Source of the DNA: Xanthomonas sacchari
GTDB lineage: Bacteria; Pseudomonadota; Gammaproteobacteria; Xanthomonadales; Xanthomonadaceae
Assembly: GCF_024266585.1 (NCBI RefSeq)
Contig: NZ_CP100647.1
Span: 3,701,001 to 3,765,000 of the forward strand
Direction: 5' to 3'
Length of the DNA stretch: 64,000 bases
Positions 4,584 to 59,568 of the stretch are shown here, one piece after another (within the stretch, counting starts at the first letter, position 1; the number at the start of each line of letters is the position of its first letter). The translations under genes and the position numbers were made by a program. The notes beneath the pieces are model-generated. The model had not been told where the DNA came from, did no database searches, and saw only the letters and a list, made by a program, of their open reading frames with translations.

Positions 4584-4599
4584 GTCGGTGGAGACCCGC

Positions 4600-8333: not shown

Positions 8334-8421
8334 GCGTAGATGTGCCAGCGACGCGTCAGTCCTGAGGTCGAGGCTGATGCCAGGCGGTCCGAACAGCAAC
8401 AGCCTCCTCCGATCCCAGCCT

Positions 8422-8451
8422 CCCCCATCTGGCATCCGTAAGCGATGGGGG
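8422..8451. terminator. Hairpin between convergent genes
   Basis: An 8-bp stem, CCCCCATC (8422-8429) with GATGGGGG (8444-8451), has a 14-nt loop and lies in the 164-bp gap between the convergent beta-galactosidase and lipoprotein genes. It has no T-run on either strand, so a terminator role is only plausible. Confidence 0.35.
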
Positions 8452-8497
8452 CCTCTGCGCGCTCTTGGGATTCGACAAGGCGGCGTTCGCAGCCTTG

Positions 8498-9013
8498 TCA
8501 GGGTCCGGTGGCAGTCGGGTTGCGGCAACCGGCATTGAGTCGCGTCACGAGCTGCATGCGCGCATCGCCGACCGCTGCGCCCAGAATCCCCAACGCATCG
8601 GACGTGGATGAGTTCCAGTTGACCCTGGCCGACTGCCCGCGCACGACGAACGCCGCCGCCCCCTGAGGCCGAATCTCGAATGCCGCCACCCCCGTTACGG
8701 TTGCGGGCAAGGCATTCAGATAGAGCTTCTGAACGGCGATTGTCACCGATGGCGCATCGGCAACGCGCGACCAGCCCAGCGAACCCAGTGCCTCACGGAC
8801 GCTGGCAGCGATGTCGGGAAATACATACGTGTGGTTTCCAAGCATTCCCACCTCTGTGGTCGATCGCGCATCGACGATTTGTCCCAGTCGGTAAGGACAG
8901 CGCAGACCGGAATCGACCTTCGTTGGCAGATGCAGCACCTGCGTGCGTTCGATGCGGGCGGCACACCCACATAACGACAGCAGCAGGCTGAGCGAAACGG
9001 CGATGCGGACCAT
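8498..9013 (-). CDS. Putative lipoprotein of unknown function
   Basis: This 171-residue protein is not one I recognise. The first 20 residues are a hydrophobic export signal ending SLCGCAAR; the LCGC stretch can serve as a lipobox, although Cys at the -2 position is unusual. The mature part has PYRLGQIVDARSTTEVG and YVFPDIAASVREALGSLGW, reminiscent of small envelope lipoproteins that hold DUF-type copies of an alpha/beta fold. The ATG overlaps the stop of the upstream gene by one base, so the two are translationally coupled and probably act together in the envelope. No catalytic motif is visible. Confidence 0.7.
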   Translation of the reverse strand: MVRIAVSLSLLLSLCGCAARIERTQVLHLPTKVDSGLRCPYRLGQIVDARSTTEVGMLGNHTYVFPDIAASVREALGSLGWSRVADAPSVTIAVQKLYLNALPATVTGVAAFEIRPQGAAAFVVRGQSARVNWNSSTSDALGILGAAVGDARMQLVTRLNAGCRNPTATGP

Positions 9014-10158
9014 CAGGGATGGGTCGCTTGGCCTTGGGGAGTCGGTGGATCCTTGGGCCTGTATGTTTCCCAGAAGGTCTTGCGGTGGCTCGGCACCGTG
9101 GGCACCGACGTCTCTGCAGGCGCCTGCGCTGGGCGGGCAGATGTGTCGACCGCGGCGGACGCGACCACGCTCGGAGTCGGATCGTTGGGCGACACGGCGG
9201 CGACTTGTACGATGGACGCTTCAGCGCTCGGAGTCGGCGCGATTGCGTGTGATGCCGCTGCTTCGGCGGCAAGCGACGGATTCGGAATGGCCGCCGTCAA
9301 CGCTGCCGGCTGATAGTCGGAACGCAATGACTGGTATCCGGTGATGGCCTGGAAGCGCGGGTTGCCAGCACGCACCCACACCACGCCCCCGTAGCGCCGC
9401 TCGATGCGGCCAGACACGCTATGCCCGGCAATGTCCGACTTTCCCTTGATCTTCTGGCCCCATTGCTGGCGACCTTCTGCAGAAAAATCGTAGACCATCA
9501 TGGCAACGGCCTGGTCGATCGATTGATCGATCAGCCCGCCCATCCGGGCTGCCCCCAACTCGAGCCAAGGCTTGCTTTCGCCAGGGGTGGGAAACTGGAA
9601 ACTGGAGCGAACGGCATAAGGGCGCGAGAACAGGAACCTGGTCTTGACCTTTCCGTTCTTTATCTCGCGATCTTCGATCGCCACGTTGAGTAGAACATAG
9701 GCCGTACCCATCGCATCGCCCATGGCGTAACGCGGCCTGATGACCAACACATGCTTCGGCATGGCGTCCAGATCCTGCCGTGCCTGCCAAGGTGCGTGAA
9801 CGATAGTGAGCACAGGGCGATCGGCGATTCCCGAGCCCGGCAGCCGGCGTTGCAGGGATCCCATCAACGGCGTTTCGAAGTCGTATCCAACCATCATGTT
9901 GCGCAACGGCAGCACGGCGGCTTCGGCGTTCTTGTTCTGCGAGTTCTGCACGGCAGTCCCGATGAGCGCACCGACCAGCCCGAACTGCATTCCCATCTGC
10001 ATCGCCGTCGACGAGACATCGATCGCCAGTTCCTGCTGGGTGAGTTCCACCTCGACCGGCATGTCGGGCGCCAATGGCAACGGCAACGCATTGTCGCGGG
10101 CCATCGAAGACGCACAGAACACACTCAGCCCTAAGGCCAAGCACAGTCGCTTGAACAT
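9013..10158 (-). CDS. Exported protein of unknown function, first gene of a two-gene operon
   Basis: This 381-residue protein is not one I recognise. It has a signal peptide (MFKRLCLALGLSVFCASSMA) and an N-terminal half of about 250 residues with a hydrophobic, Gly/Met-rich patch (MQMGMQFGLVGALIGTA) that could be membrane-associated. The sequence FLFSRPYAVRSSF and the region around WLELGAARMGGLIDQSIDQA look like an ordered domain. The last 110 residues are rich in Ala, Pro, Ser and Thr and probably disordered. Its stop overlaps the start of the lipoprotein gene by one base. The pair is flanked by convergent and divergent housekeeping or sugar genes that give no hint of function. Confidence 0.7.
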   Translation of the reverse strand: MFKRLCLALGLSVFCASSMARDNALPLPLAPDMPVEVELTQQELAIDVSSTAMQMGMQFGLVGALIGTAVQNSQNKNAEAAVLPLRNMMVGYDFETPLMGSLQRRLPGSGIADRPVLTIVHAPWQARQDLDAMPKHVLVIRPRYAMGDAMGTAYVLLNVAIEDREIKNGKVKTRFLFSRPYAVRSSFQFPTPGESKPWLELGAARMGGLIDQSIDQAVAMMVYDFSAEGRQQWGQKIKGKSDIAGHSVSGRIERRYGGVVWVRAGNPRFQAITGYQSLRSDYQPAALTAAIPNPSLAAEAAASHAIAPTPSAEASIVQVAAVSPNDPTPSVVASAAVDTSARPAQAPAETSVPTVPSHRKTFWETYRPKDPPTPQGQATHP

Positions 10159-10552
10159 CGTTATCCCGCTGAGTCGACACCCACCGGCCAGCGGCTTGCC
10201 CGCCGACCTCCCCGATTCGGCAGTCTAGCCACGCCACATGGGTGAGTAAAGGCGAGCAACGGCGCGCTTCGATTGCCGAGCACGTTCCGAACGGATAGCA
10301 AAATGGAATCAGGTAAAGAAGCTCCCACACTTCGCACGTCACCCACTGAACAAACGCGAGAAACGCCTGACCGCCCTTCGTCCAGCGATCACGTCCGCGA
10401 GCCGCGCCCAGCCGCCACATCGCCGTACCCGACCAGGCGCAACCCCAATCCACTAAACTTGCCTCCCCCACGGGCGGCCCGCCGCCCATGCCCTGTCGCA
10501 CCGGCGGCGCGCGCCAGGCGCCGTCGCCCCCGCACGTCCGCACGAAGGCGCC
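10159..10552. other. Intergenic region between a divergent hypothetical operon and mutS
   Basis: This 394-bp divergent region must carry promoters for mutS and for the two exported proteins. It is less GC-rich in the middle (about 10225-10340). I could not identify a convincing -35/-10 pair or operator. Open frames across it lack family resemblance and ribosome binding sites. Confidence 0.4.
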
Positions 10553-13144
10553 ATGACCTCAGAGAAAGTCCCCGAACACACCCCGCTGATGAAGCAGTTC
10601 TTCGCCGCCAAGTCCGAGTACCCGGACCTGCTGCTGTTCTTCCGCATGGGCGATTTCTACGAACTGTTCTACGACGACGCGCGCAAGGCCGCGCGGCTGC
10701 TGGACATCACCCTGACCCAGCGCGGCAGTTCCGGCGGCGCGCCGATCCCGATGGCCGGGGTGCCGGTGCACGCCTACGAGGGCTATCTGGCGCGGCTGGT
10801 GGCGCTGGGCGAGTCGGTGGCGATCTGCGAGCAGATCGGCGATCCGGCGCTGGCCAAGGGCCTGGTCGAGCGCAAGGTGGTGCGCATCGTCACCCCCGGC
10901 ACGGTCACCGACGAGGCCTTGCTGGACGAGCGCCGCGACACCCTGCTGATGGCCATCGCGCGCACCAAGCAGGGCTACGGCCTGGCCTGGGCCGACCTGG
11001 CCGGCGGCCGCTTCCTGGTCAACGAGGTGGACAACGAGGACGCGCTGGAAGCCGAACTGGCGCGGCTGGAGCCGGCCGAGCTGCTGGTGCCCGACGAGGA
11101 CCAGTGGCCGGAGTTCCTGCGCGAGCGCCGTGGCGTGCGCCGTCGGCCGCCGTGGCTGTTCGACGCCGACAGCGGCCGCCGCCAGTTGCTGGCGTTCTTC
11201 CAATTGCACGATCTGACCGGCTTCGGCATCGACGACAAGCCGCGCGCCACCGCCGCCGCCGGCGCCCTGCTCGGCTACGTGGAGGAAACCCAGAAGCAGC
11301 GCCTGCCGCACCTGACCGCGATCGCGATGGAAACCGCCGGCGAGGCGATCGCGATGAACGCGGCCACCCGCCGCCATTTGGAACTGGACACGCGCGTCGA
11401 CGGCGACACCCGCAACACCCTGCTCGGCGTGCTCGACAGCACGGTCACGCCGATGGGCGGGCGCCTGCTGCGGCGCTGGCTGCACCGTCCGCTGCGCCTG
11501 CGCGAGGTGCTGGTGCAGCGCCACCACGCGGTCGGCACCCTGATCGACCGCGGCGCCGACGCCGACCTGCGCGAGGCGTTCCGCGCGCTCGGCGACGTCG
11601 AACGCATCCTCACCCGCGTCGCCCTGCGTTCGGCGCGCCCGCGCGACTTCTCCACCCTGCGCGACGGCCTGGGCCTGCTGCCGAAGGTGCGCGCGGTCCT
11701 GGCGCCGCTGGATTCGCCGCGGCTGGCGGCGCTGGCCGCGGAGCTGGGCCAGCATGACGAGATCGCGCACCTGTTGGCGGCGGCGATCGCCGAACAGCCG
11801 CCGCTCAAGCTCAGCGACGGCGGCGTCATCGCCACCGACTACGACGCCGAGCTGGACGAACTGCGCCGGCTCAGCACCAACGCCGACCAGTTCCTGATCG
11901 ACCTGGAAGCGCGCGAGCGCGCCAGCAGCGGCATCGCCACGCTGAAGGTCGGCTACAACCGTGTGCACGGTTACTACATCGAGATCAGCAAGGGCCAGGC
12001 CGACAAGGCGCCGGTGCACTACAGCCGGCGCCAGACCCTGACCAACGCCGAGCGCTACATCACCGAGGAACTGAAGAACTTCGAGGACAAGGTGCTGTCG
12101 GCGCGCGAGCGTGCGCTGTCGCGCGAGAAGCTGCTCTACGAAGGCCTGCTGGACACGCTGGGCGAATGCCTGGAACCGCTCAAGCGCGCCGCCGCCGCGC
12201 TCAGCGAACTGGACGTGCTGGCCGGCTTCGCCGAACGCGCGCAGGCGCTGGACTGGACCCAGCCGGAACTGGAGACCGGTGCGTGCCTGCGCATCGAGCG
12301 CGGCCGTCACCCGGTGGTGGAAGCGGTGCGCGAGCAACCGTTCGAGCCCAACGACCTGGACCTGCACCCCGACCGACGCATGCTGGTGATCACCGGCCCG
12401 AACATGGGCGGTAAGTCGACCTACATGCGCCAGAACGCGCTGATCGTGCTGCTCGCGCACATCGGCAGCTACGTGCCGGCGCGGCGCGCGGTGATCGGCC
12501 CGATCGACCGCATCCTCACCCGCATCGGCGCCGGCGACGACCTGGCCCGCGGCCAGTCGACCTTCATGGTCGAGATGGCCGAGACCAGCTACATCCTGCA
12601 CCACGCCACCGCGCAGTCGCTGGTGCTGATGGACGAGATCGGCCGCGGCACCTCCACCTACGACGGCCTGGCCCTGGCCGACGCGGTGGCGCGCCACCTG
12701 GCCCACCACAACCGCTGCTACACGCTGTTCGCCACGCACTATTTCGAGCTGACCGCGCTGGCCGACGCATCGGTCGAAGGCGGCCCCAGCGGCATCGCCA
12801 ACGTGCACCTGGACGCGGTCGAGCACGGCGACCGCCTGGTGTTCATGCACGCGGTCAAGGACGGCCCGGCCAACCGCAGCTTCGGCCTGCAGGTGGCGGC
12901 GCTGGCCGGCCTGCCCAAGGCCACCGTGGCGCAGGCGCGGCGGCGCCTGGCGGAACTGGAACAGCGCGGCGGCGAAAGCCACGCCTCGCAGATGGCGCCG
13001 CAGGCGCTGGACGCGCCGCAGCAGTTCGGCCTGTTCGCGGCCGCGCCTTCCGCCGCGCAGGAAGCGCTGGCCGCGTTGGATCCGGACGAACTGACACCCA
13101 AGCAGGCGTTGGAGGCGCTGTACCGGCTCAAGTCGCTGCTGTAA
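10553..13144 (+). CDS. mutS: DNA mismatch repair ATPase MutS
   Basis: This 863-residue protein recognises base mismatches and small loops and recruits MutL. The N-terminal mismatch-binding domain has the invariant Phe-X-Glu pattern in [14 protein letters not shown] (near residues 31-44). Connector, core and clamp domains follow. The ATPase has the Walker A motif GPNMGGKST at residues 615-623, then the [10 protein letters not shown] Walker B region and ATHYFEL. The C-terminus ends in the dimer/tetramer segment ([21 protein letters not shown] region). Length and order are those of MutS1. It appears to be a single-gene unit, followed by a long repeat array. Confidence 0.98.
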
Positions 13145-48012: not shown

Positions 48013-48043
48013 GCCGTTTCGCTCTAGGTGGATAGGATTTCGA

Positions 48044-48061
48044 TATATGAAAACAAATATC
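48044..48061. promoter_or_regulatory. Candidate operator TATATG..CAAATATC, copy 2
   Basis: TATATGAAAACAAATATC is the near-twin of the element at 45688-45704 and lies in the divergent promoter region of the dehydrogenase and dehydratase genes. Confidence 0.6.
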
Positions 48062-48077
48062 CATTCGAAGATATTTG
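48054..48077. promoter_or_regulatory. 24-bp palindrome CAAATATC-N8-GATATTTG
   Basis: Perfect 8-bp arms are separated by CATTCGAA in the AT-rich divergent region. The left arm is the conserved end of the TATATG..CAAATATC element. This looks like a dimeric regulator site controlling both genes. Confidence 0.65.
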
Positions 48078-48186
48078 CTATTTTTCACGTATCAATATGC
48101 CCGCTAGCATCCCCGGCGTAAAGCATCCGGGGGCGGCTTGCGCACAAGGCGGATCCCGGCGACCTGGACACGAGGAATCCGCCGAC

Positions 48187-49911
48187 ATGGGCTCACCCAG
48201 CAAACCGCCGCGCCGCAGCCAGGCGTGGTTCGGGCGCGAAGGCAAGCAGGGCTTCTACTACCGCAGCTGGCTCAAGAGCGCCGGCCATCCGCACGACATG
48301 TTTGACGGCCGCCCGGTGATCGGCATCTGCAACACCTGGTCGGAGCTGACCCCGTGCAACGGCCACCTGCGCGAACTGGCCGAGCACGTGAAGCGCGGCG
48401 TGTACGAGGCCGGCGGGTTTCCGCTGGAGTTCCCGGTGATGTCGCTGGGCGAAACGCAGATGCGCCCGACCGCGATGCTGTTCCGCAACCTGGCCAGCAT
48501 GGACGTGGAGGAATCGATCCGCGCCAATCCGCTGGACGGCGTGGTGCTGCTGATGGGCTGCGACAAGACCACCCCGGCGCTGCTGATGGGCGCGGCCAGC
48601 GTCGACCTGCCGACCATCGGCGTGTCCGGCGGGCCGTCGCTGTCGGGCAACTGGCGCGGGCAGCCGCTGGGCTCGGGCACCGGCGTGATCGAAATGTCGG
48701 AGATGGTTCGCGCCGGCACCTTGAGCCAGGACGATTTCGTCGAGGCCGAAGCCTGCATGCAGCGCTCCAAGGGCAGTTGCATGACCATGGGCACCGCCTC
48801 GACCATGGCCAGCATGGTCGAGGCGCTGGGCATGTCGCTGCCGGAAAACGCGGCGATCCCGGCGGTGGACGCGCGCCGCGCGCGGCTGGCGCGGCTCAGC
48901 GGACGGCGCATCGTGCAGATGGTGGAAGAGGACCTGCGCATGTCGCAGGTGCTGACCGCCGATGCCTTCGCCAACGCGATCAAGGTCAATGCGGCGATCG
49001 GCGGCTCCACCAATGCGGTGCTGCATCTGCTGGCCCTGGCCGGCCGCGTGGGCGTGCCGCTGCAGTTGGACGACTGGGACCGGCTCGGCTCGCGGCTGCC
49101 GTGCCTGGTGAACCTCAAACCGTCCGGACAGTACCTGATGGAAGACTTCTACTACGCCGGCGGGCTGCCGGCGGTGATGCGCGAACTCGGCGCCGAACTG
49201 GCGCTGGACGCGCGCACCGTCAACGGCCGCACCGTCGGCGAGAACGTGGCGCAGGCGCCGTGCTGGAACCGTGAGGTGATCCATCCGCTGGATGCGCCGG
49301 TGCGCGCGGAGGCCGGCATCGCCGTGCTGCGCGGCAACCTGGCGCCGGACGGGGCGGTGATCAAGCCCTCGGCCGCCTCGCCGCACCTGTTGCGGCATCG
49401 CGGGCGCGCGGTGGTGTTCGAGAGCATCGAGGACTTCAAGGCGCGTATCGACGACGAGGCGCTGGACATCGACGCCGACTGCATCATGGTACTCAAGCAC
49501 TGCGGCCCGCGCGGCTACCCGGGCATGGCCGAGGTCGGCAACATGCCGCTGCCGCCGAAACTGCTGCGCGCCGGCATCACCGACATGGTGCGCATCTCCG
49601 ACGCGCGCATGAGCGGCACCGCCTACGGCACCGTGGTGCTGCACGCCTCGCCTGAGGCCGCCGCCGGCGGCACCCTGGCGCTGGTACGCGACGGCGACAT
49701 CATCGAACTCGACGTCCCCGGCCGCGCCCTGCACCTGGAGGTCAGCGACGAGGAACTGCTGCGCCGGCGCAGCGAATGGACCCCGCCGCCGGCCCCGACC
49801 CGCGGCTGGAGCAAGCTCTACGTGGAGCACGTGCAGCAGGCGCACCTGGGCGCGGACCTGGACTTCCTGGTCGGCGGCAGCGGCGACGCCGTGGCGCGTG
49901 ATTCGCACTAG
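48187..49911 (+). CDS. IlvD/Edd family dehydratase, probable L-arabonate dehydratase
   Basis: This 574-residue iron-sulfur dehydratase converts a sugar acid to the 2-keto-3-deoxy acid; L-arabonate (or D-galactonate) is expected here. Cluster cysteines lie at 57 (SELTPCNGHL), 125 (LLMGCDKTTPALLMG) and 198 (SKGSCMTMGTAS), the spacing of the pentonate dehydratases rather than of IlvD proper. AAIGGSTNAVLHL and the C-terminal GGTLALVRDGDIIELDVPGR are family motifs. The ATG at 48187 has GAGGA 10 nt upstream. It is transcribed away from the 1-dehydrogenase gene from a palindrome-bearing promoter region. Confidence 0.9.
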   Translation: MGSPSKPPRRSQAWFGREGKQGFYYRSWLKSAGHPHDMFDGRPVIGICNTWSELTPCNGHLRELAEHVKRGVYEAGGFPLEFPVMSLGETQMRPTAMLFRNLASMDVEESIRANPLDGVVLLMGCDKTTPALLMGAASVDLPTIGVSGGPSLSGNWRGQPLGSGTGVIEMSEMVRAGTLSQDDFVEAEACMQRSKGSCMTMGTASTMASMVEALGMSLPENAAIPAVDARRARLARLSGRRIVQMVEEDLRMSQVLTADAFANAIKVNAAIGGSTNAVLHLLALAGRVGVPLQLDDWDRLGSRLPCLVNLKPSGQYLMEDFYYAGGLPAVMRELGAELALDARTVNGRTVGENVAQAPCWNREVIHPLDAPVRAEAGIAVLRGNLAPDGAVIKPSAASPHLLRHRGRAVVFESIEDFKARIDDEALDIDADCIMVLKHCGPRGYPGMAEVGNMPLPPKLLRAGITDMVRISDARMSGTAYGTVVLHASPEAAAGGTLALVRDGDIIELDVPGRALHLEVSDEELLRRRSEWTPPPAPTRGWSKLYVEHVQQAHLGADLDFLVGGSGDAVARDSH

Positions 49912-49937
49912 CGCCGGCACCCCCGCGCAACGCCGCT

Positions 49938-50004
49938 GTTGGTGCGACTTCGGTCGCGACCGGGCCTTGCCGGGAAAGCCCGTCGCGACCGAAGTCGCTC
50001 CCAC
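49938..50004. repeat. Inverted repeat of the GTGCGACTTCGGTCGCGAC type
   Basis: Arms at 49938-49960 and 49982-50004 are reverse complements apart from one or two bases around GGGCCTTGCCGGGAAAGCCC. It is a variant of the repeat family, with GACTTCGGTC in place of GGCTTCAGCC. A second relative (TGTGGGAGGGACTTCAGTCCCGACGC) follows at 50035-50060. The rest of this 316-bp gap holds nothing I can call. Confidence 0.8.
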
Positions 50005-50227
50005 ATCGGCTTGCGGCGAACCCGCCAGGTGCACTGTGGGAGGGACTTCAGTCCCGACGCATTGCGCCATCGGAAAGCACACCACTTCGTGCCTCGCGAC
50101 TGCATGACAGTCGACTCCAATAGCAAGTGGCCAGCGCCGCCTTCTTCCACGCGCATCGCCCCCACGTCACCGCACCGTCATCTGCAGCTTCTAGCCTGCG
50201 CCGCACCCCAGGGACAAGGCAGGCTCG

Positions 50228-50752
50228 GTGGCGGCTCACCCCAAACGCGCATGGGCGCGCATGTTCGCGGAACACGGCCCGGTGCTGCGCGGCTTCTTCG
50301 TGCGCCGCGGCGCGCGCGAGGATGCCGAGGACATGGTGCAGGAGACCTATCTGCGGCTGCTGCGCGCGCATCGGCAGCAGGGCGAGGCCATCGCCAATCC
50401 GGAAGCCTACCTGTACACCGTCGCGCAGAACCTGGCGCGCGAACAGGCCGCGCGGCGCCGCCAGGCGCCGCTGCGCATCGAGGAGATGGAGCAGTTCTCG
50501 CAATTGCTGGCGGCGGGAGACGACGTGGAAGACAGCGCACAGCGGCGGCAGCGCCAGCAGCACCTGCAGGCCCTGCTCGCCGACCTGCCCGCGCGCACCC
50601 GCGCGGTGCTGGTGATGCAGTACCGCGACGGGCTGAGCTACAAGCAGATCGCCGAACGCATGGGCGTGTCGCCGCACATGGTCAAGAAGCACGTGGTGCG
50701 CGGCCTGTCGGCGTGCCGGCGCGCGCTCGCCGACCGCGGAGAGCACTGGTGA
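50228..50752 (+). CDS. ECF sigma factor, FecI type
   Basis: This 174-residue extracytoplasmic-function sigma factor has region 2 with REDAEDMVQETYLRLLRAH and region 4 with LPARTRAVLVMQYRDGLSYKQIAERMGVSPHMVKKHV. It heads a surface-signalling unit with a FecR-like anti-sigma factor and an STN-bearing TonB receptor, so its likely targets are the receptor operon and itself. The start is a GTG at 50228; the next in-frame start, ATG 50261, is shorter by 11 residues. The stop overlaps the start of the anti-sigma gene by 4 nt (GTGA). Confidence 0.9.
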   Translation: MAAHPKRAWARMFAEHGPVLRGFFVRRGAREDAEDMVQETYLRLLRAHRQQGEAIANPEAYLYTVAQNLAREQAARRRQAPLRIEEMEQFSQLLAAGDDVEDSAQRRQRQQHLQALLADLPARTRAVLVMQYRDGLSYKQIAERMGVSPHMVKKHVVRGLSACRRALADRGEHW

Positions 50753-51825
50753 ACGACAGCGGCTTCCCCTCGCGCAGCGCCACCGCCGATGCCGCACACT
50801 GGCACGCGCTGCAGCGCATGCACCCCTTGGACGCGAAACAGGAACAGCAGTTGCTGGACTGGCTGACCGCCTCGCCGCAGCACCTGCGCGAGTATCTGGC
50901 GCTGCAGCGCGTGGCCGGCGAACTCGGCGAGGCGCTGCGCGGCATGGACCTGGACGTGGATGCCCTGCTGGCCAGCGACGACACCGCCGACGGCGCCGCG
51001 GCCGGCAACGTGATCGCCCTGCCCTTGTCGCCGCGCGCGACAGCGCCAGCGACGGCTGCATCCGCGCGCGCCAAGCGTGCCAGCCCCACGCCGCGCTGGC
51101 GCCTGGCCGCGGCCGCCGCCGTGTGCGCGGTGGCGGTGCTGGTCGGCTGGGCCTGGCCGAGCAGCCAGACCTACCGCACCGCGCTCGGCGAACAACGCAG
51201 CGTGCGACTGGCCGACGGCAGCAGGGTGCGGCTCAACGCACAGACCCAGGTGCGTGCCACGCTGACGCCCTGGAGCCGGAGGCTGCAGTTGCTGCAGGGC
51301 CAGGCCAGCTTCGTGGTCGCCGCCGACCGCCGCCCGCTGCAGGTGCAGGCCGGCGGCCTGCGCGTGGAGGACATCGGCACCACCTTCGACATCGCCCTGC
51401 ACCAGGACCAGGCGCGCATCGAGGTCTCGTCCGGGCGCGTGCACGTGTGGCGCCAGGACCGGCCGCAGCAGCCGATGCTGGCCGATCTCGGCGCCGGCCA
51501 GAGCGCACGCATCGACACCGCCGATGGCCGGGTCGAACTGGGCAACGAGGACGTCGCCGCGATGCATGCCTGGTGGCAACGGCGCATCGTCTTCCGCGAC
51601 GAACCGCTGGTCAACGTCGCCGAGGACTTCAACCGGCTCAATCGCACCCGCCTGCGGATCGACGACGCCGACGCCGGCGCGATGCGGCTGACCGGCAACC
51701 TGCGCGGCGACGATGTCGCCGCATTGCGCGCCTTCCTCGATGCGCAGCCGACCCTACAGGTACGCACCAGCGCCGACGGCATCCACGTGCGCAGCCGCGC
51801 ACAGGCGCAGGCACACAGGCAGTAG
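50749..51825 (+). CDS. FecR family anti-sigma regulator
   Basis: This 358-residue protein has an N-terminal cytoplasmic part of about 115 residues (including a DUF4880-like HPLDAKQEQQLLDWL), a single transmembrane segment near 121-140 (WRLAAAAAVCAVAVLVGWAW), and a periplasmic FecR domain with the pattern LGEQRSVRLADGSRVRLNAQT and IGTTFDIALHQDQARIEVSSGRV. It senses the loaded TonB receptor through the STN domain and controls the sigma factor. The start GTG at 50749 overlaps the sigma stop. The C-terminal 60 residues match a DUF4974/STN-contacting segment. Confidence 0.9.
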   Translation: MNDSGFPSRSATADAAHWHALQRMHPLDAKQEQQLLDWLTASPQHLREYLALQRVAGELGEALRGMDLDVDALLASDDTADGAAAGNVIALPLSPRATAPATAASARAKRASPTPRWRLAAAAAVCAVAVLVGWAWPSSQTYRTALGEQRSVRLADGSRVRLNAQTQVRATLTPWSRRLQLLQGQASFVVAADRRPLQVQAGGLRVEDIGTTFDIALHQDQARIEVSSGRVHVWRQDRPQQPMLADLGAGQSARIDTADGRVELGNEDVAAMHAWWQRRIVFRDEPLVNVAEDFNRLNRTRLRIDDADAGAMRLTGNLRGDDVAALRAFLDAQPTLQVRTSADGIHVRSRAQAQAHRQ

Positions 51826-52147
51826 CTGCAGCCAGCACAGCGCGCGACGCGCGGCGGCTGCGCGGCGCCGCAGCGTACGCATACGCGCCTTGCCCGAGAA
51901 CACGCCGCCGCGGCACACCCAGCCAATATGGGCGCAAACGCTGCTCGCGCTGATGAAGGGGGCGATCGACTCTTCGCGCACGCGGCGAACCCAGCGCACG
52001 CTCCGCGCACGTGTCACAGAAAATTCATCGAAAAAACGGTGCCCGATCGTCGCCGTCGCGCCTCGTAGTCCGGGGACAGCGCAGGCAATCGCCCTCTCGC
52101 GGCGATGCCTCGCGCATCACCACCCCCGCTGCCACTGGACCTCGACG
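51826..52147. other. Intergenic region upstream of the signalling TonB receptor
   Basis: This 322-bp gap probably carries the promoter read by the ECF factor. A GAAAAT (52019-52024) and a CGTC (52048-52051) are present, but their spacing (23 bp) is not standard, so I do not call a promoter. No small gene is evident. Confidence 0.3.
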
Positions 52148-55045
52148 ATGCGCCGCACCCTGTTCCTTTCCATCGCCCTCGCCCTGCATGCCGGCGCCGC
52201 CGGCGCACAGACCGCCCCCGTCGCGGTCGATGCGATTCCCGCTCAGCCGCTGGCGCGTGCACTCAATGCCCTGTCGCGGCAGACCGGCCTGCAGTTCGTC
52301 TACGCCGCCGGCAGCACCGGCAATCCGCAGACCCACGGCAGCCGCGCCGGCGCGGCGCCGGAACAGGCGCTGCAGCAACTGCTCGACGGCACCGGCCTGC
52401 GCTACCGTTTCCTGACCCCGACCACGGTGACCATCGAGGCCGCGAGCGCGCCGGCCGAAACCGCCAGCACCACGCCGGCCGCGATGACCGCCGCACCAGC
52501 ACCGGTGCCGGCACCGCCCGCGGACGCGCCGGTCAAGCAACTGGACGGCATCCAGGTACTCGGCAGCTACGCCGGCAGCCTCAGCGCCGCGCTGCGCGAG
52601 AAGCGCTACGCCGACAGCGTGGTCGACGTGATCGCTGCCGAGGACATCGGCAAGCTGCCGGCGCAGAACGTGGCCGAAGCGCTGCAGCGCGTGCCCGGCG
52701 TGTCGATCGTGCGCGACCGCGGCGAAGGCGTGTACGTGCGCGTGCGCGGCCTGGGCCCCAACTTCCAGGTGACCACGCTCAACGGCCAGACCATGGCGGT
52801 CAACGAAAACGTGCGCACCTCCGGCCAGACCGGCCGCCAGTTCCGCTACGACACCCTGCCGGCGGAACTGGTCGCCGGCCTGGAGGTGATCAAGAGTCCC
52901 ACCGCCGACCTGGACGAAGGCGCGATCGGCGGCATCGTCAACGTGCGCACCTTCCGCCCGCTGGAACTGGGCAAGCCCCTGACCAACGTGTCGCTGGAAT
53001 CGAGCCAGGCGCAGCGCACCCACGCCAACGACCCGCGCGTGTCCGGCCTGTTCAACTGGGTCAACGCCGACGGCACCTTCGGCGTGCTGCTCTCCGGCGC
53101 CTATGCGCAGCGCAGCCTGCGCCAGGACCGGGTCAACGAAGTGAGTTGGGACTACTACCGCAACGGCGTGCCGGGCGTACCGGGCGCCCACTACGTGGCC
53201 ACCGGCCTGCGCCCGACACTGGAACTGGAGCAGCGCGAACGCACCGGCATCGCCGCCTCCCTGCAATGGAAGCCGAGCGCGGCGTGGGAAACCAATCTGG
53301 ACCTGCTGTACGCCAGGCAGACCGTGCACTACGACGAATACAGCCTGGGCGTCGGCTTCGACAGCCTCGCCAAGCTCGGCAACCTACGCGTGGCGCACGA
53401 CGGCATTGCCGGTTTCGATTACCGCAACGGCCAGGTGCAGATCTCGCGCGAGACTTCCGGCATCACCGACGACAACCGCAGCGCGCGTCTGTCCAGCACC
53501 TGGAGCGGCGATGCGTGGACGCTGGGCGCGGTGGCGTTCCACTCGCAGGCGCACAGCTACGACTCCGATCCGATCCGGCGCACGCGCCTGCGCAGCGGCA
53601 CCACCTTGTCGATGCGCGTGGACATGCCGCAGGCCGATGGCGACGACGTGCCCGACTGGCGCTTCACCAACGGCTTCGACCCGACCAACCCGGCCAGCGT
53701 GGCCGGGCGCCGCCTGGAGTGGCGCGAGATCGACGCGCGCGACAAGGAAGACGCGCTGCAGCTCGACGCCAAGCGCGCGCTCGGCGACGGCTTCTTCCGC
53801 GACCTCAAGTTCGGCGCCAAGTACCGGCAACGCTCGCGCACCTACGATCGCGCCGACCTGCTGCTGACCAGCATCGCCGGCGTGCGCTTCCCGGCCGGCA
53901 ACTTCACCGCGCTGCCGGTGGACGACATGCTCGCCGACGCCCACGGCAACCTGCCGCGACAGTGGCTGGCGCCGATCGAATCGACCTTCTTCGGCACCTG
54001 GCCGACCGCCGCGGACCTGGTCAACACGCCGAACAGCGCCGACCTGCAGAACTCCTACGAAGTGAAGGAGAAGATCGGCTCGGCCTATGCGATGGCCGAC
54101 TTCGGCAGCGAACTGGCCGGCCGCGAACTGCGCGGCAACCTCGGCGTGCGCCTGGTCCGCACCGAGCAGACCACCGACGGCCACGCCGACGTCAAAGGCA
54201 GCGCGCAACCGGTGCATTTCGCGCGCAGCTACAGCAACGCACTGCCCTCGTTCAACGCCGCCTGGGACGTGCGCGAGGACATCGTGCTGCGCAGCTCCGC
54301 GGCCAAGGTCATCACCCGCCCCGACCTCACCGACCTGTCGTCCAAGCTCACCTTCAATTCCAGCGGCGAAATCCTCACCGCCAGCGGCGGCAATCCATCG
54401 CTGCGCCCATTCGAGGCCTGGCAGTACGACCTGACCTTCGAGTGGTACATCGACGGCACCTCGGCGCTGACCGGCGGCGTGTTCTACAAGGACATCTCCC
54501 GCTTCATCCAGACCCAGCTGTCGAACCTGCAGTACCAGGGCCAGACCTACCTGCTCTCGTCCAAGACCAACGGCAGCCAGGCCAGCGTCAAGGGCGTGGA
54601 AGTGGCCTACCAGCAGGTCTTCGCCGGCCTGCCGGCGCCGCTGGACGGGCTGGGCATGCAGCTCAACTACACCTGGACCGACAGCGAGGCCACCTACCGC
54701 GACGGCAGCCGCAGCTTCACCGACAGCCTCGAAGGCGTGGCCAAGAACACCTACAACGCGGTGCTGTTCTACGAGAAGGGCCCGCTGATGGCGCGGGTGA
54801 GCTACAGCTGGAGCGACGACATCGTCAACGCGGTCGGCACCGCCAACGTCGCCACGCTCAACAGCGACACGTTCGGCAGCCTCGATGCGAACGTGGCCTG
54901 GAAGGTCAACGACACCCTGTCGCTGTTCGTCAACGCGATCAACCTCACCGGCGCCGTGCAGCGCCAGTACGTCGGCGACCGCCTGTTCGGCGGCTACACC
55001 GATTACGGGCGCACCTGGTCGGTGGGCCTGCGCGCGCGTTTCTGA
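52148..55045 (+). CDS. TonB-dependent receptor with N-terminal STN signalling domain
   Basis: This 965-residue outer-membrane receptor has a signal peptide (LALHAGAAGAQ), then an STN domain at about residues 24-100 (FVYAAGSTG, LLDGTGLRYRF), an Ala/Pro/Thr linker, a TonB-box-like region (LDGIQVLGSYAGSL), the plug (LPAQNVAEALQRVPGVSIVRDRGEG and VRGLGPNFQVTTLNGQTMAVN) and a beta-barrel ending in RTWSVGLRARF. The STN domain makes it a signalling receptor that informs the FecR/ECF pair. The genes after it encode secreted phosphate-cleaving enzymes. The ligand may therefore be an organophosphate or its product, by inference. It is not typical of siderophore receptors in plug sequence. Confidence 0.9.
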   Translation: MRRTLFLSIALALHAGAAGAQTAPVAVDAIPAQPLARALNALSRQTGLQFVYAAGSTGNPQTHGSRAGAAPEQALQQLLDGTGLRYRFLTPTTVTIEAASAPAETASTTPAAMTAAPAPVPAPPADAPVKQLDGIQVLGSYAGSLSAALREKRYADSVVDVIAAEDIGKLPAQNVAEALQRVPGVSIVRDRGEGVYVRVRGLGPNFQVTTLNGQTMAVNENVRTSGQTGRQFRYDTLPAELVAGLEVIKSPTADLDEGAIGGIVNVRTFRPLELGKPLTNVSLESSQAQRTHANDPRVSGLFNWVNADGTFGVLLSGAYAQRSLRQDRVNEVSWDYYRNGVPGVPGAHYVATGLRPTLELEQRERTGIAASLQWKPSAAWETNLDLLYARQTVHYDEYSLGVGFDSLAKLGNLRVAHDGIAGFDYRNGQVQISRETSGITDDNRSARLSSTWSGDAWTLGAVAFHSQAHSYDSDPIRRTRLRSGTTLSMRVDMPQADGDDVPDWRFTNGFDPTNPASVAGRRLEWREIDARDKEDALQLDAKRALGDGFFRDLKFGAKYRQRSRTYDRADLLLTSIAGVRFPAGNFTALPVDDMLADAHGNLPRQWLAPIESTFFGTWPTAADLVNTPNSADLQNSYEVKEKIGSAYAMADFGSELAGRELRGNLGVRLVRTEQTTDGHADVKGSAQPVHFARSYSNALPSFNAAWDVREDIVLRSSAAKVITRPDLTDLSSKLTFNSSGEILTASGGNPSLRPFEAWQYDLTFEWYIDGTSALTGGVFYKDISRFIQTQLSNLQYQGQTYLLSSKTNGSQASVKGVEVAYQQVFAGLPAPLDGLGMQLNYTWTDSEATYRDGSRSFTDSLEGVAKNTYNAVLFYEKGPLMARVSYSWSDDIVNAVGTANVATLNSDTFGSLDANVAWKVNDTLSLFVNAINLTGAVQRQYVGDRLFGGYTDYGRTWSVGLRARF

Positions 55046-55167
55046 TCCGCCGCGCTGCCGCCCGCGCGCGGCAGCAAGCCTGCGCCGCTGCCTGCACGGC
55101 AGCGACCGCAGCCAGCGCACCGTGCGCCGCCGCGCACGGCGCCCCCGCCCCTGCCTGGAGCTTGCCG

Positions 55168-56469
55168 ATGCCACCGCTGTCGTACCTCGCCGCCCTCGCC
55201 GTGTTCGCCCTCGCGCCGCTGGCCTGCACCGCGGCACGCGCGCAAGCGGCCGCGACCGACACCCTGGAGAAAGTGCTGATCCTCAAGCGCCACGGCGTGC
55301 GCGCGGCGATGTCCAGCACCGCGCAACTGGAGCGCTACTCGGCGCGCCCATGGCCACGCTTCGCGGTTCCCGCCGGGCATCTCACCGCGAACGGCGCGGC
55401 GCTGGAACGGCTGTTCGGCGCCTATTACCGCGCCCGCTACGCACCGCTGGGGCTGTTCGCCGGCGACGGCTGCGCGGCCGCGTACTACTGGGCCAACCGC
55501 ACCCAGCGCACCATTGCCTCGGCGCAGGCACTGGCCAGCACACTGACCCCGGGCTGCGCGAATCCGGTGCACAGCGTCGCCGACGGCGCCTCTGATCCGC
55601 TGTTCGACGGCGCGCCCGCCCTGCGCGATCCCGCCGCGGTGGCGCAGATGCGCGCGGCCATCGCCGGCCGCATCGGCGGCGATGCACCCGCCTGGAACGC
55701 GGCGCAGGCCGACGCCATCGACAGCCTGCAGCAACTACTGCTGCAGTGCGCGCAGCGGCCCTGCCCGGCCGACGCCGGCAGCGGCAAATTGCGCCTGGAT
55801 GCGGTGCCGGCACGGCTGGGCGACGCCGGCGAGGCGATCCCCGGCATCGAAGGCCCGGCCGCGGCCGCCTCCGGCCTCAGCGAAAGCCTGTTGATGGGCT
55901 GGGCCGACGGCCAGGACTTCGCCGCGCTGGGCTGGCGCGGCGTCGACGAGGCCAGCCTGTTGCGCGCCTTCGCCCCGCACCAGGCCGAGTTCGCGCTGCG
56001 CCTGCGCGCACCGGCGGTGGCGCGCATGGCCGCCTCGCCGCTGGCGGCGCGGCTGCTGGCGACGCTGCTGGACGGCAGCGGCCAGGCCATGCACGCCGCG
56101 CCGATCGGCGGCGCGGCGCGGCTAGTGGTGCTGTCCGGCCACGACGGCACCCTGACCCTGCTCGCCGGCATGCTCGACCTGCACTGGCAACTGCCCGGCT
56201 ACCAGCCCGACCAGACCGTGCCCGGCGGCGCGCTGGTGTTCGAGCGCTGGCGCCGCGCCGACGGCGAGCGGGTGATCCGCCTGCGCTACACCGCGCAGAG
56301 CCTGGCGCAGTTGCGCGAACGCCGTGCGCTGACCGTGCAGGCGCCGCCGCTGGCGTCGGCGGTGTTCATCCCGCGCTGCAGCCGCGCCGATGGCGAGTAC
56401 GACTGCCCACTGGCCGCTTTCGCGACCGCGGTCGAGGCCGCGATCGACCCGCAGTTCCTGACCCCATGA
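55168..56469 (+). CDS. Secreted histidine acid phosphatase (phytase/glucose-1-phosphatase type)
   Basis: This 433-residue protein has a signal peptide ending near ARAQA. The phosphate-binding and nucleophile motif is RHGVR at residues 41-45 (His42 nucleophile), and the proton donor is the HD pair at 325-326 (VLSGHDGTL). The arrangement is that of branch-2 histidine phosphatases such as phytase, AppA and Agp. It carries several Cys that could form disulfides in the periplasm. The substrate may be phytate, a sugar phosphate or another phosphomonoester. It follows the receptor gene by 122 bp and precedes the EEP-family gene by 110 bp on the same strand. Confidence 0.88.
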   Translation: MPPLSYLAALAVFALAPLACTAARAQAAATDTLEKVLILKRHGVRAAMSSTAQLERYSARPWPRFAVPAGHLTANGAALERLFGAYYRARYAPLGLFAGDGCAAAYYWANRTQRTIASAQALASTLTPGCANPVHSVADGASDPLFDGAPALRDPAAVAQMRAAIAGRIGGDAPAWNAAQADAIDSLQQLLLQCAQRPCPADAGSGKLRLDAVPARLGDAGEAIPGIEGPAAAASGLSESLLMGWADGQDFAALGWRGVDEASLLRAFAPHQAEFALRLRAPAVARMAASPLAARLLATLLDGSGQAMHAAPIGGAARLVVLSGHDGTLTLLAGMLDLHWQLPGYQPDQTVPGGALVFERWRRADGERVIRLRYTAQSLAQLRERRALTVQAPPLASAVFIPRCSRADGEYDCPLAAFATAVEAAIDPQFLTP

Positions 56470-56579
56470 CGCCACGCGCGCCGGCCCCGGCCGGTCGCGC
56501 GGCGGCATCGGTGCTTCCGGCACCGTCCCCTGGCCCTCGCGCCACCCGCTGTTCCTCCCAACCCGCAAAGAGGCGATTC

Positions 56580-57884
56580 ATGATCCAGCATCTACGCACC
56601 CTCGTGAGCTACGGCATCGGATTGAGCCTGGCCTGCGCCGGCGTGGTCCACGCGCAATCGGACGTCGGCGTGCTCGACGTGCTCACCTACAACGTCGCCG
56701 GCCTGCCGCAGGGCATTTCCAGCAGCAACCCGGCCGCCAACACCGCCCAGATCGCACCGAAGCTGGCGCCCTACGGCCTGATCAACGTGCAGGAAGACTT
56801 CAACTACCACGCCACCCTGTACGCGGGCGACAACCATCCCTACCGCACCCCCACCAGTGGCGGCGCGGCGATCGGCGACGGCCTCAACACGCTGAGCAAC
56901 TACCGCTTCGACGACTTCACCCGCGTCAAGTGGGACAAGTGCAACGGCACCGACTGCCTCACTCCCAAGGGCTTCAGCTACATGCGCGTGCGCCTGGACG
57001 ACGGCGTGCTGCTGGACGTGTACAACGCGCACCCCAACGCCGGCACCGAGAGCGCCGACCTGGCCGCGCGGCGCGCCAACATCAGCCAGCTCTCGCAGTT
57101 CATCCAGACCTGGTCGGCCGGCAACGCGGTGCTGGTGATGATGGACTCCAACACCCGCTACACCCGCGCCGACGACAACATCCGCGAGCTGATCGCCGCC
57201 AACGGCCTGACCGATACCTGGGTCGAGCTGGTCAAGGGCAACGCCCCGGCCGCCGGCGCGGCGCCGCTGCTGTGCGGCACCCCGCCGACCAATGAGTGCG
57301 AGGTGGTGGACAAGATCCTGTACCGCGACGCGCCGCAACTGACCCTGGTCGCCAACCGCTACAAGCTCGACGACGGCAACTTCTACGACAGCGACGGCAA
57401 GCCGCTGTCCGACCACTACCCGCTGGCCGCGCAGTTCGGCTGGGCGGTCGGTGCCACCGTGCGCACCAGCGACCAGTTCGGCGGCCCGCACGGCACCCCG
57501 TTCAACGACATCGCCAAGGGCGCCGAGCAACGCACCATCGCCAGCGTGACCCTGCGTGGCGCCTCGCGCCTGGACGGCATCGCGCTGGGCCTGGACAACG
57601 GCAGCACCCTGGCCCACGGCGGCAGCGGCGGCGATCCGGTCACGCTGCGCCTGGGCAGCAACGAACGGCTGACCTCGGCCACGCTGAGCGTGGGCCAGTA
57701 CAACGGCCACACCCGGCTGTTCTCGCTGAGCCTGCGCACCAACCAGGGTCGCAGCCTCAGCGCCGGCACGCCGACCGCCGAGACCTACACGCTCACCGCG
57801 CCCAGCGGCTGGCACATCGCCGGCTTCACCGGCCGCGACGGCGACGAGATCGACAAGCTCGGCGCGATCTATCGCAAGGACTGA
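56580..57884 (+). CDS. Secreted EEP-family hydrolase with C-terminal jacalin-like domain
   Basis: This 434-residue exported protein has a signal peptide ending VVHAQ. Residues 30-285 form an endonuclease/exonuclease/phosphatase domain with the metal and catalytic set Asn38 (LTYNVAGLP), Glu72 (NVQEDFNYH), His151 (NAHPNAG), Asp189 and Asn191 (MMDSNTRY), and Asp278-His279 (LSDHYPL). Members cleave phosphoesters in DNA, sphingomyelin or inositol phosphates. Residues about 290-434 resemble a jacalin-like lectin domain, with GGPHGTPFNDI at the start, then DGIALGLDNG and the C-terminal FTGRDGDEIDKLGAIYRKD. The lectin part may target sugar-bearing surfaces. The start at 56580 is the ATG after AAAGAGGCG. 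The substrate is unknown. Confidence 0.85.
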   Translation: MIQHLRTLVSYGIGLSLACAGVVHAQSDVGVLDVLTYNVAGLPQGISSSNPAANTAQIAPKLAPYGLINVQEDFNYHATLYAGDNHPYRTPTSGGAAIGDGLNTLSNYRFDDFTRVKWDKCNGTDCLTPKGFSYMRVRLDDGVLLDVYNAHPNAGTESADLAARRANISQLSQFIQTWSAGNAVLVMMDSNTRYTRADDNIRELIAANGLTDTWVELVKGNAPAAGAAPLLCGTPPTNECEVVDKILYRDAPQLTLVANRYKLDDGNFYDSDGKPLSDHYPLAAQFGWAVGATVRTSDQFGGPHGTPFNDIAKGAEQRTIASVTLRGASRLDGIALGLDNGSTLAHGGSGGDPVTLRLGSNERLTSATLSVGQYNGHTRLFSLSLRTNQGRSLSAGTPTAETYTLTAPSGWHIAGFTGRDGDEIDKLGAIYRKD

Positions 57885-57925
57885 CGGAAACGCGGGTGCG
57901 ATCGCGCCCGCGGCAACGCAACGGC

Positions 57926-57953
57926 AACGGCGCGCGTGGCGACGCGCGCCGTT
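57926..57953. terminator. Hairpin between convergent EEP-jacalin and radA genes
   Basis: A perfect 12-bp stem AACGGCGCGCGT/ACGCGCGCCGTT with a 4-nt loop sits 42 bp after the EEP gene. There is no T-run. It may end transcripts from both sides. Confidence 0.55.
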
Positions 57954-58182
57954 CGCCATGCTGGACCGCCATACGCAGGCGGGGCCCATCGCCGGGTGTG
58001 CGCATCGGTGTGCAGCGAACGGCTGCGTCGCAGCCGACGACGCGCGCGGCAAACCTCATGCCAGGCCCCTCGATGCGGCGGCGCAGCTACGCCGATCGCC
58101 GCATCACCCGCACCACTGCGCCGCGCTTCGCAGGGACACAGCCTGCACGAACAACGAAGACGCAGCCTGCCGGCGGCGCGGC

Positions 58183-59568
58183 CTATTCGCTCGCCGCTTC
58201 CAGCGCCTGCGCCAGGCGCTCCACTGCGATCACCTCCATGCCCTTGACCGTGCCGGTCTTGGGCGCATTGGCCTTGGGCACGATGGCGCGCTTGAAGCCA
58301 TGCGTGGCGGCCTCGCGCAGCCGGTCCTCGCCGTTGGGCACCGGGCGGATCTCGCCGGACAGGCCGACCTCGCCGAAGGCGATGGTCTTCTCCGCCAGCG
58401 GCCGGTCGCGCAGCGACGACAGCACCGCCAGCAGCACCGGCAGGTCGGCCGCGGTCTCCTGCACGCGGATGCCGCCGACCACGTTGACGAACACGTCCTG
58501 GTCGCCGACCACGATGCCGCCATGGCGGTGCAGCACAGCCAGCAGCATCGCCAGCCGGTTCTGTTCCAGGCCCACCGCCACGCGTCGCGGATTGGACAGC
58601 GGCGAGGCATCGACCAGCGCCTGCACTTCCACCATCAGCGGCCGCGTGCCTTCGCGGGTGACCATCACGCAACTGCCGGGCTGGTGCGCACTGCCGCCGG
58701 AGAGGAAGATCGCCGACGGATTGGAGACTTCCTTCAGGCCCTTCTCGCCCATCGCGAACACGCCCAGCTCGTTGACCGCGCCGAAGCGGTTCTTGAAGGC
58801 GCGCAGCAGGCGGAAACGGCTGCCGCTCTCGCCCTCGAAGTACAACACCGCATCGACCATGTGCTCGAGCACGCGCGGGCCGGCGATGCCGCCCTCCTTG
58901 GTGACGTGGCCGACCAGGAACACCGCGGTGCCGGTCTCCTTGGCATAGCGCACCAGCCGCGCCGCGCTCTCGCGCACCTGGCTGACCGAGCCGGGCGCGG
59001 CGGTCAGCGCCTCGGTCCACAGGGTCTGCACCGAGTCGGCGACGATCAGCTTGGGCCGCGCCGCGCTGGCGTGCTGCAGGATGTGTTCGATGCCGGTCTC
59101 GGCCAGCGCATTGAGGCCGTCCAGCGGCAGGTCCAGGCGCACCGCGCGCCCGGCGACCTGGCCCAGCGATTCCTCGCCTGTCACGTACAGCACCGGCAGG
59201 GTGCCGGCCATCTTCGCCAGCGCCTGCAGCAGCAGGGTCGACTTGCCGATGCCCGGATCGCCGCCGATCAGCACCACCGCGCCCTCGACCAGGCCGCCGC
59301 CGAGCACCCGGTCGAACTCGCCGATGCCGGTGGACACGCGCGCCTGGTCGCGATGCTCCACGTCCTTGAGCGCGGTGATCTTCGGCGTCTCGGCCTTGCC
59401 GGCCCAGCCGCTGCGCCGCGCCGCGGCCGGCGCCTTGGCCGTGGCCGCGCTTTCCAGCACGATCTCGCTCAGCGTGTTCCAGGCGCCGCATTCGGTGCAC
59501 TGGCCCTGCCACTTGGTGTACTCGGCGCCGCATTCGCCGCAGACATAGGCCGTTTTCGCTTTCGCCAT
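58183..59568 (-). CDS. radA: DNA repair protein RadA
   Basis: This 461-residue RecA-like ATPase drives branch migration in recombination. It has the N-terminal zinc finger CGECGAEYTKWQGQCTECGAW, the Walker A GGDPGIGKSTLLLQ, the RadA-specific KNRFGAVNELGVF motif and a C-terminal Lon-like domain with GGIRVQETAADLPVLLAVLSS. The start at 59568 gives the standard MAKAKTAYVCGECG. It appears to be a single-gene unit. Confidence 0.97.
   Translation of the reverse strand: MAKAKTAYVCGECGAEYTKWQGQCTECGAWNTLSEIVLESAATAKAPAAARRSGWAGKAETPKITALKDVEHRDQARVSTGIGEFDRVLGGGLVEGAVVLIGGDPGIGKSTLLLQALAKMAGTLPVLYVTGEESLGQVAGRAVRLDLPLDGLNALAETGIEHILQHASAARPKLIVADSVQTLWTEALTAAPGSVSQVRESAARLVRYAKETGTAVFLVGHVTKEGGIAGPRVLEHMVDAVLYFEGESGSRFRLLRAFKNRFGAVNELGVFAMGEKGLKEVSNPSAIFLSGGSAHQPGSCVMVTREGTRPLMVEVQALVDASPLSNPRRVAVGLEQNRLAMLLAVLHRHGGIVVGDQDVFVNVVGGIRVQETAADLPVLLAVLSSLRDRPLAEKTIAFGEVGLSGEIRPVPNGEDRLREAATHGFKRAIVPKANAPKTGTVKGMEVIAVERLAQALEAASE

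Follow-up and report, generated by a model that had tools for sequence, protein, structure and literature searches.

What does a cell-surface signalling system control when its genes are followed by genes for enzymes that cleave phosphate esters? According to the accessible parts of PMC1790865 and PMC4971064, FecI/FecR/STN-receptor sets mostly serve iron. The question is raised by a five-gene locus (50228..57884) in a stretch of 64,000 nucleotides from Xanthomonas sacchari (contig NZ_CP100647.1, positions 3,701,001 to 3,765,000), which is referred to as the window and from whose first letter positions are counted. The locus is probably a phosphate-starvation-gated cell-surface signalling system for scavenging inositol phosphates, either phytate or lower inositol phosphates, as judged from its protein families, its conserved gene order and a Pho-box-like element before its first gene.

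Pfam and NCBIfam searches were run on the locus proteins. The first gene encodes an extracytoplasmic function (ECF) sigma factor (50228..50752, 174 aa; Pfam Sigma70_r4_2 3.8e-16) and overlaps by 4 bp the gene for a FecR-type anti-sigma/sigma regulator (50749..51825, 358 aa; FecR 5.3e-20). After a gap of 322 bp follows a TonB-dependent receptor (52148..55045, 965 aa) with a TonB barrel (PF00593, 6.1e-39), a plug (2.6e-18) and an STN domain (2.2e-9), which also scores above the cut-off of TIGR01782 (752 bits; cut-off 310). Together in one locus, these three genes make up what a FecIRA-type system requires. Next come, after 122 bp, a phytase-like histidine acid phosphatase (55168..56469, 433 aa; His_Phos_2 6.9e-21) and, after a further 110 bp, a protein of 434 aa (56580..57884; Jacalin 7.7e-20, Exo_endo_phos2 5e-15) in which an endonuclease/exonuclease/phosphatase (EEP) domain of the neutral-sphingomyelinase type (about residues 26-295) precedes a jacalin-like lectin domain (residues 298-430). 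The sequence and an open reading frame check confirm the layout proposed in the first-pass annotation, with five open genes in this order on the + strand and no internal stops, and the same holds for the ECF/FecR overlap (coordinates), the STN domain of the receptor (Pfam) and the assignment of the last two genes to phosphate-ester-cleaving families (Pfam). The N-terminal signal sequences of the two enzymes were assessed by eye only.

The conservation of this arrangement was studied in 31 loci obtained by a genome-contig search with the phosphatase, whose neighbours were scored by tblastn of the window proteins. These loci favour close relatives because they were drawn via short peptide patterns of the query. 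The order ECF-FecR-receptor-phosphatase is kept in 23 of the 31 loci, and EEP and jacalin domains come next in 19, so this gene order is not due to chance and the proposed tie between enzyme and signalling genes is borne out. A receptor match lies 5' of the phosphatase in 29 of the 31; it is missing in L090, which has 105 bp before the match, and in L093. The 19 loci with the EEP-jacalin gene comprise 18 from Xanthomonas and one from Pseudoxanthomonas wuyuanensis. Counted among them are two loci with signs of decay, namely X. phaseoli L085 (4927-5449), where the ECF match is split between two frames, and X. hortorum L078 (11517-12818), where a stop lies inside the EEP-jacalin gene.

The regulatory evidence comes from the region before the ECF gene. 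In promoters controlled by PhoB, the -10 hexamer has a characteristic spacing relative to the Pho box. The alignment of 14 upstream regions revealed a direct repeat of YGTCAY with an 11-bp period, which in the window takes the form YGTCAY-N5-YGTCAY (50165..50181, +), begins 63 bp 5' of the start codon of the ECF gene and is followed 10 bp 3' by the -10-like hexamer TAGCCT (50192..50197, +). By pattern, this is the geometry of a Pho box, and the direct repeat, its period and the spaced -10 before the first gene correspond to a PhoB promoter; a Pho box is described in the accessible part of PMC4971064 as two 7-bp direct repeats. From this pattern we infer that PhoB acts at the putative Pho box. 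The strict pattern occurs at nine sites in the 4.89-Mb genome, compared to two for the reversed control. Two of the nine lie before the ECF starts of the two ECF-FecR-receptor-phytase loci of this genome, at 63 bp in the window and at 87 bp in the other (locus 2). Locus 2 is an independent test because the motif was found at the window locus, and nine sites per genome correspond by calculation to about 1e-4 expected in 100 bp of one strand. Of 24 loci, comprising the 23 with the four-gene order and L101, 22 have a looser GTCA-N7-GTCA box 60-65 bp upstream of the ECF gene; over the 964,936 strand bases searched, the 24 loci contain 28 such boxes. In these 22 loci, the box is followed at the same spacing by a -10-like hexamer (TAGCCT, CAGGCT or TACCCT).

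Three phosphatase genes of this family are present in the X. sacchari genome. Locus 2 (L098, G000:C1:862000-876000, about 4552-10170) repeats the order ECF-FecR-receptor-phosphatase; its ECF sigma factor shares 40 % and its FecR protein 30 % identity with the counterpart in the window. Pfam reports its receptor without STN, and in tblastn residues 1-96, which correspond to the STN region, align at 46 %. Of the 12 other genomes of the genus that have locus 2, 11 were fetched, and each of these holds exactly one box, which lies before the ECF gene. Locus 3 (L097, G000:C1:4216000-4230000, about 3541-8938, - strand) has no ECF or FecR match and combines a receptor and a phosphatase, with a gene of the phosphatidylinositol-specific phospholipase C type (PI-PLC-C1, PF16670, 310 bits) lying between the two; among eight fetched relatives, the receptor is matched in six and the PI-PLC gene in three. 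This PI-PLC-C1-type gene is an independent hint at inositol. A near-match before locus 3 in the X. sacchari genome was discarded as a Pho box since it is an inverted and not a direct repeat, and something like it was seen only in L135 and L136.

A further receptor-phytase pair was observed in a metagenome-assembled genome of Phenylobacterium (L089, about 7077-11143), in which no ECF, FecR or STN was detected. It has a strict Pho-box-like site 208 bp before the likely receptor start, with an earlier possible start that would put the site inside the gene. Judging by this site, the pair is perhaps under direct PhoB control.

A second conserved element lies before the receptor gene of the window (52011..52076, +; core motif 52021-52043). 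This block, found by upstream alignment and a genome motif search, is recognisable in 13 of the 14 aligned loci. The remaining locus, L081, also has a divergent ECF sigma factor (35 %) and FecR protein (29 %). For locus 2, 12 genomes were aligned, and each has a related block in front of the receptor gene. The shared core AAATTCAY-N{6,9}-CGGTRSC has two genome sites, before the receptors of the window locus and of locus 2, with one match in the reversed control; because both sites served to define the motif, only its absence elsewhere is informative. Its position and conservation suggest that the block is likely an ECF-dependent promoter.

The phosphatase contains the two motifs of histidine acid phytases, RHGxR (RHGVR at residue 41) and HD (at residue 325), and is similar over its full length to phytase structures in the PDB (4aro 5.4e-53, 1dkl 1.5e-47), followed by a glucose-1-phosphatase (6rmr 1e-32). 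By sequence it is a relative of the histidine acid phytases, not filed as AppA. The enzyme could act in the periplasm or outside the cell. The two enzymes may prepare the ligand for the receptor, as proposed in the first-pass annotation, but the phosphatase might just as well work on a ligand that has already been taken up.

For the EEP-jacalin protein, NCBIfam gave no match at the default threshold, and Pfam found both domains, with the jacalin-like lectin PF01419 at 72.1 bits (cut-off 22). When the full-length protein was searched against the PDB as a single sequence, the matches were lectin-type chains covering only the jacalin part. With a profile of nine EEP relatives, the eight best PDB matches were neutral sphingomyelinases (7e-16 to 2.7e-8), of which three go by the name beta-hemolysin, and the next match was tyrosyl-DNA phosphodiesterase 2 (0.098). 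Against the curated sphingomyelinase model TIGR03395, however, the EEP domain of the window scores just 12.2 bits and that of L081 20.9 bits, far short of the cut-off of 248.2. An inositol 5-phosphatase identity, first suggested by Pfam Exo_endo_phos2, was set aside because the profile search ranked sphingomyelinases first. A structure model with a mean pLDDT (predicted local distance difference test) of 45, built with 16 close relatives, was not used as evidence. Across 16 EEP sequences, N38, E72, D125, K130, H151, D189, N191, D278 and H279 are invariant, of which those other than D125 and K130 are presumably the catalytic residues of the EEP family. D125 and K130 form the D-x4-K pair of sphingomyelinases, and a D..K pair with the same spacing is described as conserved and essential in these enzymes in the accessible part of PMC4544949. 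The protein shares the EEP fold family and this pair with the neutral sphingomyelinases treated there, including yeast Isc1, a family member acting on inositol phosphosphingolipids, and differs from them in its bacterial origin, its predicted secretion and its jacalin lectin domain. Based on these similarities, it is predicted to be a neutral-sphingomyelinase-type phosphodiesterase joined to a jacalin lectin.

The distribution of the EEP gene differs from that of the first four genes. The latter occur without it in L082, where 579 bp are left after the phosphatase match, L083 ([Pseudomonas] boreopolis), L084 (Stenotrophomonas) and L088 (Sphingobium). Among 20 same-genus genomes, 13 have a close phosphatase and 12 of these also have the EEP gene; in the exception, G001, only EEP fragments remain at the locus (L099 4980-5185). 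Given the EEP-less loci of [Pseudomonas] boreopolis, Stenotrophomonas and Sphingobium and the fragments in G001, the EEP gene is placed outside the core. Of the five-gene order, the first four genes are thus the conserved part (23 of 31 loci), with the EEP gene next in 19. We read the receptor and the phytase as a putative older core to which the sphingomyelinase-lectin gene would have been added. The frequent separation of enzyme and signalling genes that would have spoken against a joint system was not found for the EEP gene: among 149 related genomes, EEP relatives of at least 79 % identity occur in 13, each of them next to a phosphatase match that also reaches 79 %, with 112-138 bp between the two matches, and no other relative at this identity was found elsewhere in these genomes. 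The other four EEP matches among the 149 genomes are weak or partial, with 40 % identity in G023, a 30-residue piece in G001 and two matches in the lectin region. Across 369 genomes of the class, the EEP-jacalin protein was matched in five, of which one is its own genome and four are partial and distant. No match was found in the plasmid collection.

These observations can be combined into a proposed mechanism. At low phosphate, PhoB acting at the Pho box would switch on the ECF and FecR genes. Binding of a ligand to the STN-bearing receptor would cause FecR to free the ECF sigma factor, which would then start transcription at the conserved candidate promoter 5' of the receptor gene. In this way, production of the receptor and probably of the enzymes would require both a shortage of phosphate and the presence of the ligand. 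With STN, plug and barrel in one protein, the receptor is expected to both signal and transport as in FecIRA-type systems; it would import the phosphorylated ligand, whose phosphate the phytase-like enzyme would strip. In Xanthomonas and Pseudoxanthomonas, the added sphingomyelinase-type lectin phosphodiesterase would probably release phosphorylated headgroups from lipids. Families, gene order and conserved boxes are read directly from the DNA, and from them we infer the binding of PhoB, the pairing of sigma factor and promoter, the transcription of the enzyme genes from the receptor promoter, the ligand and the substrates.

Several findings weigh against phosphate-gated scavenging of inositol phosphates. 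The phosphatase does not reach the curated AppA equivalog NF007552 (234.6 of 585 bits). The receptor is not basic, with a net charge of -12 for the whole protein, which says little either way. In the stretch searched, which was measured from where the protein match begins and not from a confirmed start codon, the box is missing at L081 (identity of 35 % for ECF and 29 % for FecR) and at L088 (29 % for ECF and 32 % for FecR), and no GTCA-N7-GTCA box was found at the third phosphatase locus in any of eight fetched relatives. The upstream region of the pst operon has no strict Pho-box match and one near-match by eye, in a genus with no calibrated PhoB target. No phosphate gene was recognised at the other seven strict sites, where open reading frames were inspected by eye with no family search. 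Furthermore, the related loci in the box counts are not independent of one another.

One alternative is that the FecIRA chassis serves iron here as it usually does, and that the receptor imports iron bound to inositol phosphate, which the phytase then frees, or takes up another iron carrier. Phytate chelates iron, and the models closest to the receptor of locus 2 are of the siderophore type, although the receptor does not reach the cut-off (TIGR01783, 122.8 of 223.5 bits). Fur control of the ECF-FecR genes is usual, but not universal, in FecIRA-type systems, and was scored with the Xanthomonas Fur consensus (19 positions) given in the accessible part of PMC1790865, where the published sites score 13-17 with the same consensus. 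The best scores are 10 before the ECF gene and 9 before the receptor gene of the window, that is background level in 1000 random 420-bp stretches (mode 9, maximum 13), and ten loci scored in this way range from 8 to 12. This genome does have good Fur matches at similar systems. It contains seven FecR loci, and besides the window and locus 2 an ECF gene was found at four of the other five, with Fur scores of 15, 15, 9 and 10 of 19 and Pho scores of 8-9 of 12 for all four; the two scores of 15 lie before the ECF genes at L149 (G000:C1:1428000-1440000) and L150 (G000:C1:4236000-4248000). Locus 2 scores 9 of 19 for Fur and 12 of 12 for Pho. The same ECF/FecR/receptor chassis thus appears to be wired to iron at two loci with Fur-box matches and to phosphate at two loci with Pho-box-like sites. 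A Fur-regulated FecI/FecR/transducer set, XCC3593-3595, is reported in the same part of PMC1790865 as seemingly specific to X. campestris pv. campestris strains, and we take it to be another locus. In view of the Pho-box-like sites at both phytase loci and a window receptor of the TIGR01782 type above its cut-off, iron uptake is quite improbable as the function of the locus. The earlier suggestion of phosphate rather than iron is supported by the Pho-box-like element and the background Fur scores, both of which are sequence patterns.

If phosphate is the target, the substrates may still be broader than inositol phosphates, with a general phosphatase and phosphodiesterase acting on mixed substrates such as sugar phosphates and phospholipids and a non-inositol receptor ligand. 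This would fit a phosphatase that stays below the AppA cut-off and also matches a glucose-1-phosphatase model (155.5 of 425 bits), and the related phosphatases go together with receptors of two classes, whose ligands may not be the same. The higher rank of phytase structures over glucose-1-phosphatases (5.4e-53 versus 1e-32) and the PI-PLC-type gene at the third locus make general organophosphate scavenging unlikely. The EEP-jacalin gene could also be an unrelated secreted sphingomyelinase-type enzyme that lies downstream by hitch-hiking and has no part in the pathway. Its absence from some four-gene loci, the fragments in G001 and the stop in L078 agree with this, whereas its close relatives all adjoin the phosphatase in the 13 genomes that carry them, and hitch-hiking seems rather unlikely. 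Plants have inositol-phosphate sphingolipids, the glycosyl inositol phosphorylceramides (GIPCs), in place of sphingomyelin. A tentative and somewhat doubtful extension of the phosphate-gated system is that the EEP-jacalin gene encodes a lectin-guided phospholipase C for plant GIPCs, which under phosphate starvation would shave off inositol-phosphate headgroups of plant membranes, to be sensed by the receptor and dephosphorylated. If true, surface signalling would be wired to host-lipid phosphorus.

The 5' neighbour of the locus is a dihydroxy-acid-dehydratase-family gene (48028-49911), and its 3' neighbour on the opposite strand (58183-59568) encodes KaiC/ATPase, ChlI and zinc-ribbon domains and is presumably RadA/Sms-like. 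No terminator-like site was found within 49800-58200. A further TonB-dependent receptor in the window (1992-4499, +) is 31 % identical to the receptor studied here.

No publication found in a literature search was recognised as describing the locus, with most subscription papers outside the reach of that search. Like the iron system FecI-FecR-FecA, the locus encodes an ECF sigma factor, FecR and an STN-bearing TonB receptor together, but it has a Pho-box-like instead of a Fur-box element before the ECF gene, and phosphatase and phosphodiesterase genes 3' of the receptor gene. The nearest regulatory precedent, by analogy, is PUMA3 (VreA-VreI-VreR) of Pseudomonas aeruginosa, a surface signalling system whose expression at low phosphate under PhoB is described in the accessible part of PMC4971064. 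Both have an ECF sigma factor and an anti-sigma factor, with low-phosphate PhoB control of the present locus suggested by the box. However, the hallmark of PUMA3 is a barrel-less receptor-like protein, VreA, encoded first, whereas the receptor here has plug and barrel, is encoded third and is followed by a phytase-like gene.

Functional precedents, again by analogy, are found in other bacteria. In Flavobacterium, phosphate-utilisation systems and a phytase-TonB-dependent transporter pair (PMC8115612, accessible part) join outer-membrane TonB transporters to phosphatases, some with ECF/FecR, and are induced by phosphate depletion; these Bacteroidetes use SusCD-type transporters and other phosphatase families, and the phytase is of pf02333 and not a histidine acid phosphatase. 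TonB receptors and a phytase belong to the PhoB regulon of Caulobacter (PMC11208175), and in Citromicrobium a receptor lies beside a phytase gene (PMC3400609), with no ECF/FecR layer described in the accessible parts of either source. Our best reading is that the locus is a variant on FecIRA, PUMA3 and the Flavobacterium phosphate-utilisation systems, in which PhoB-gated surface signalling would serve inositol phosphates. This reading makes the import of inositol phosphates by TonB receptors and the supply of bacterial phosphate from inositol lipids testable. If it is true, phosphate-gated surface signalling is not confined to PUMA3, which lacks the barrel, but in plant-associated bacteria also works through a receptor that has a barrel and is joined to a phytase.

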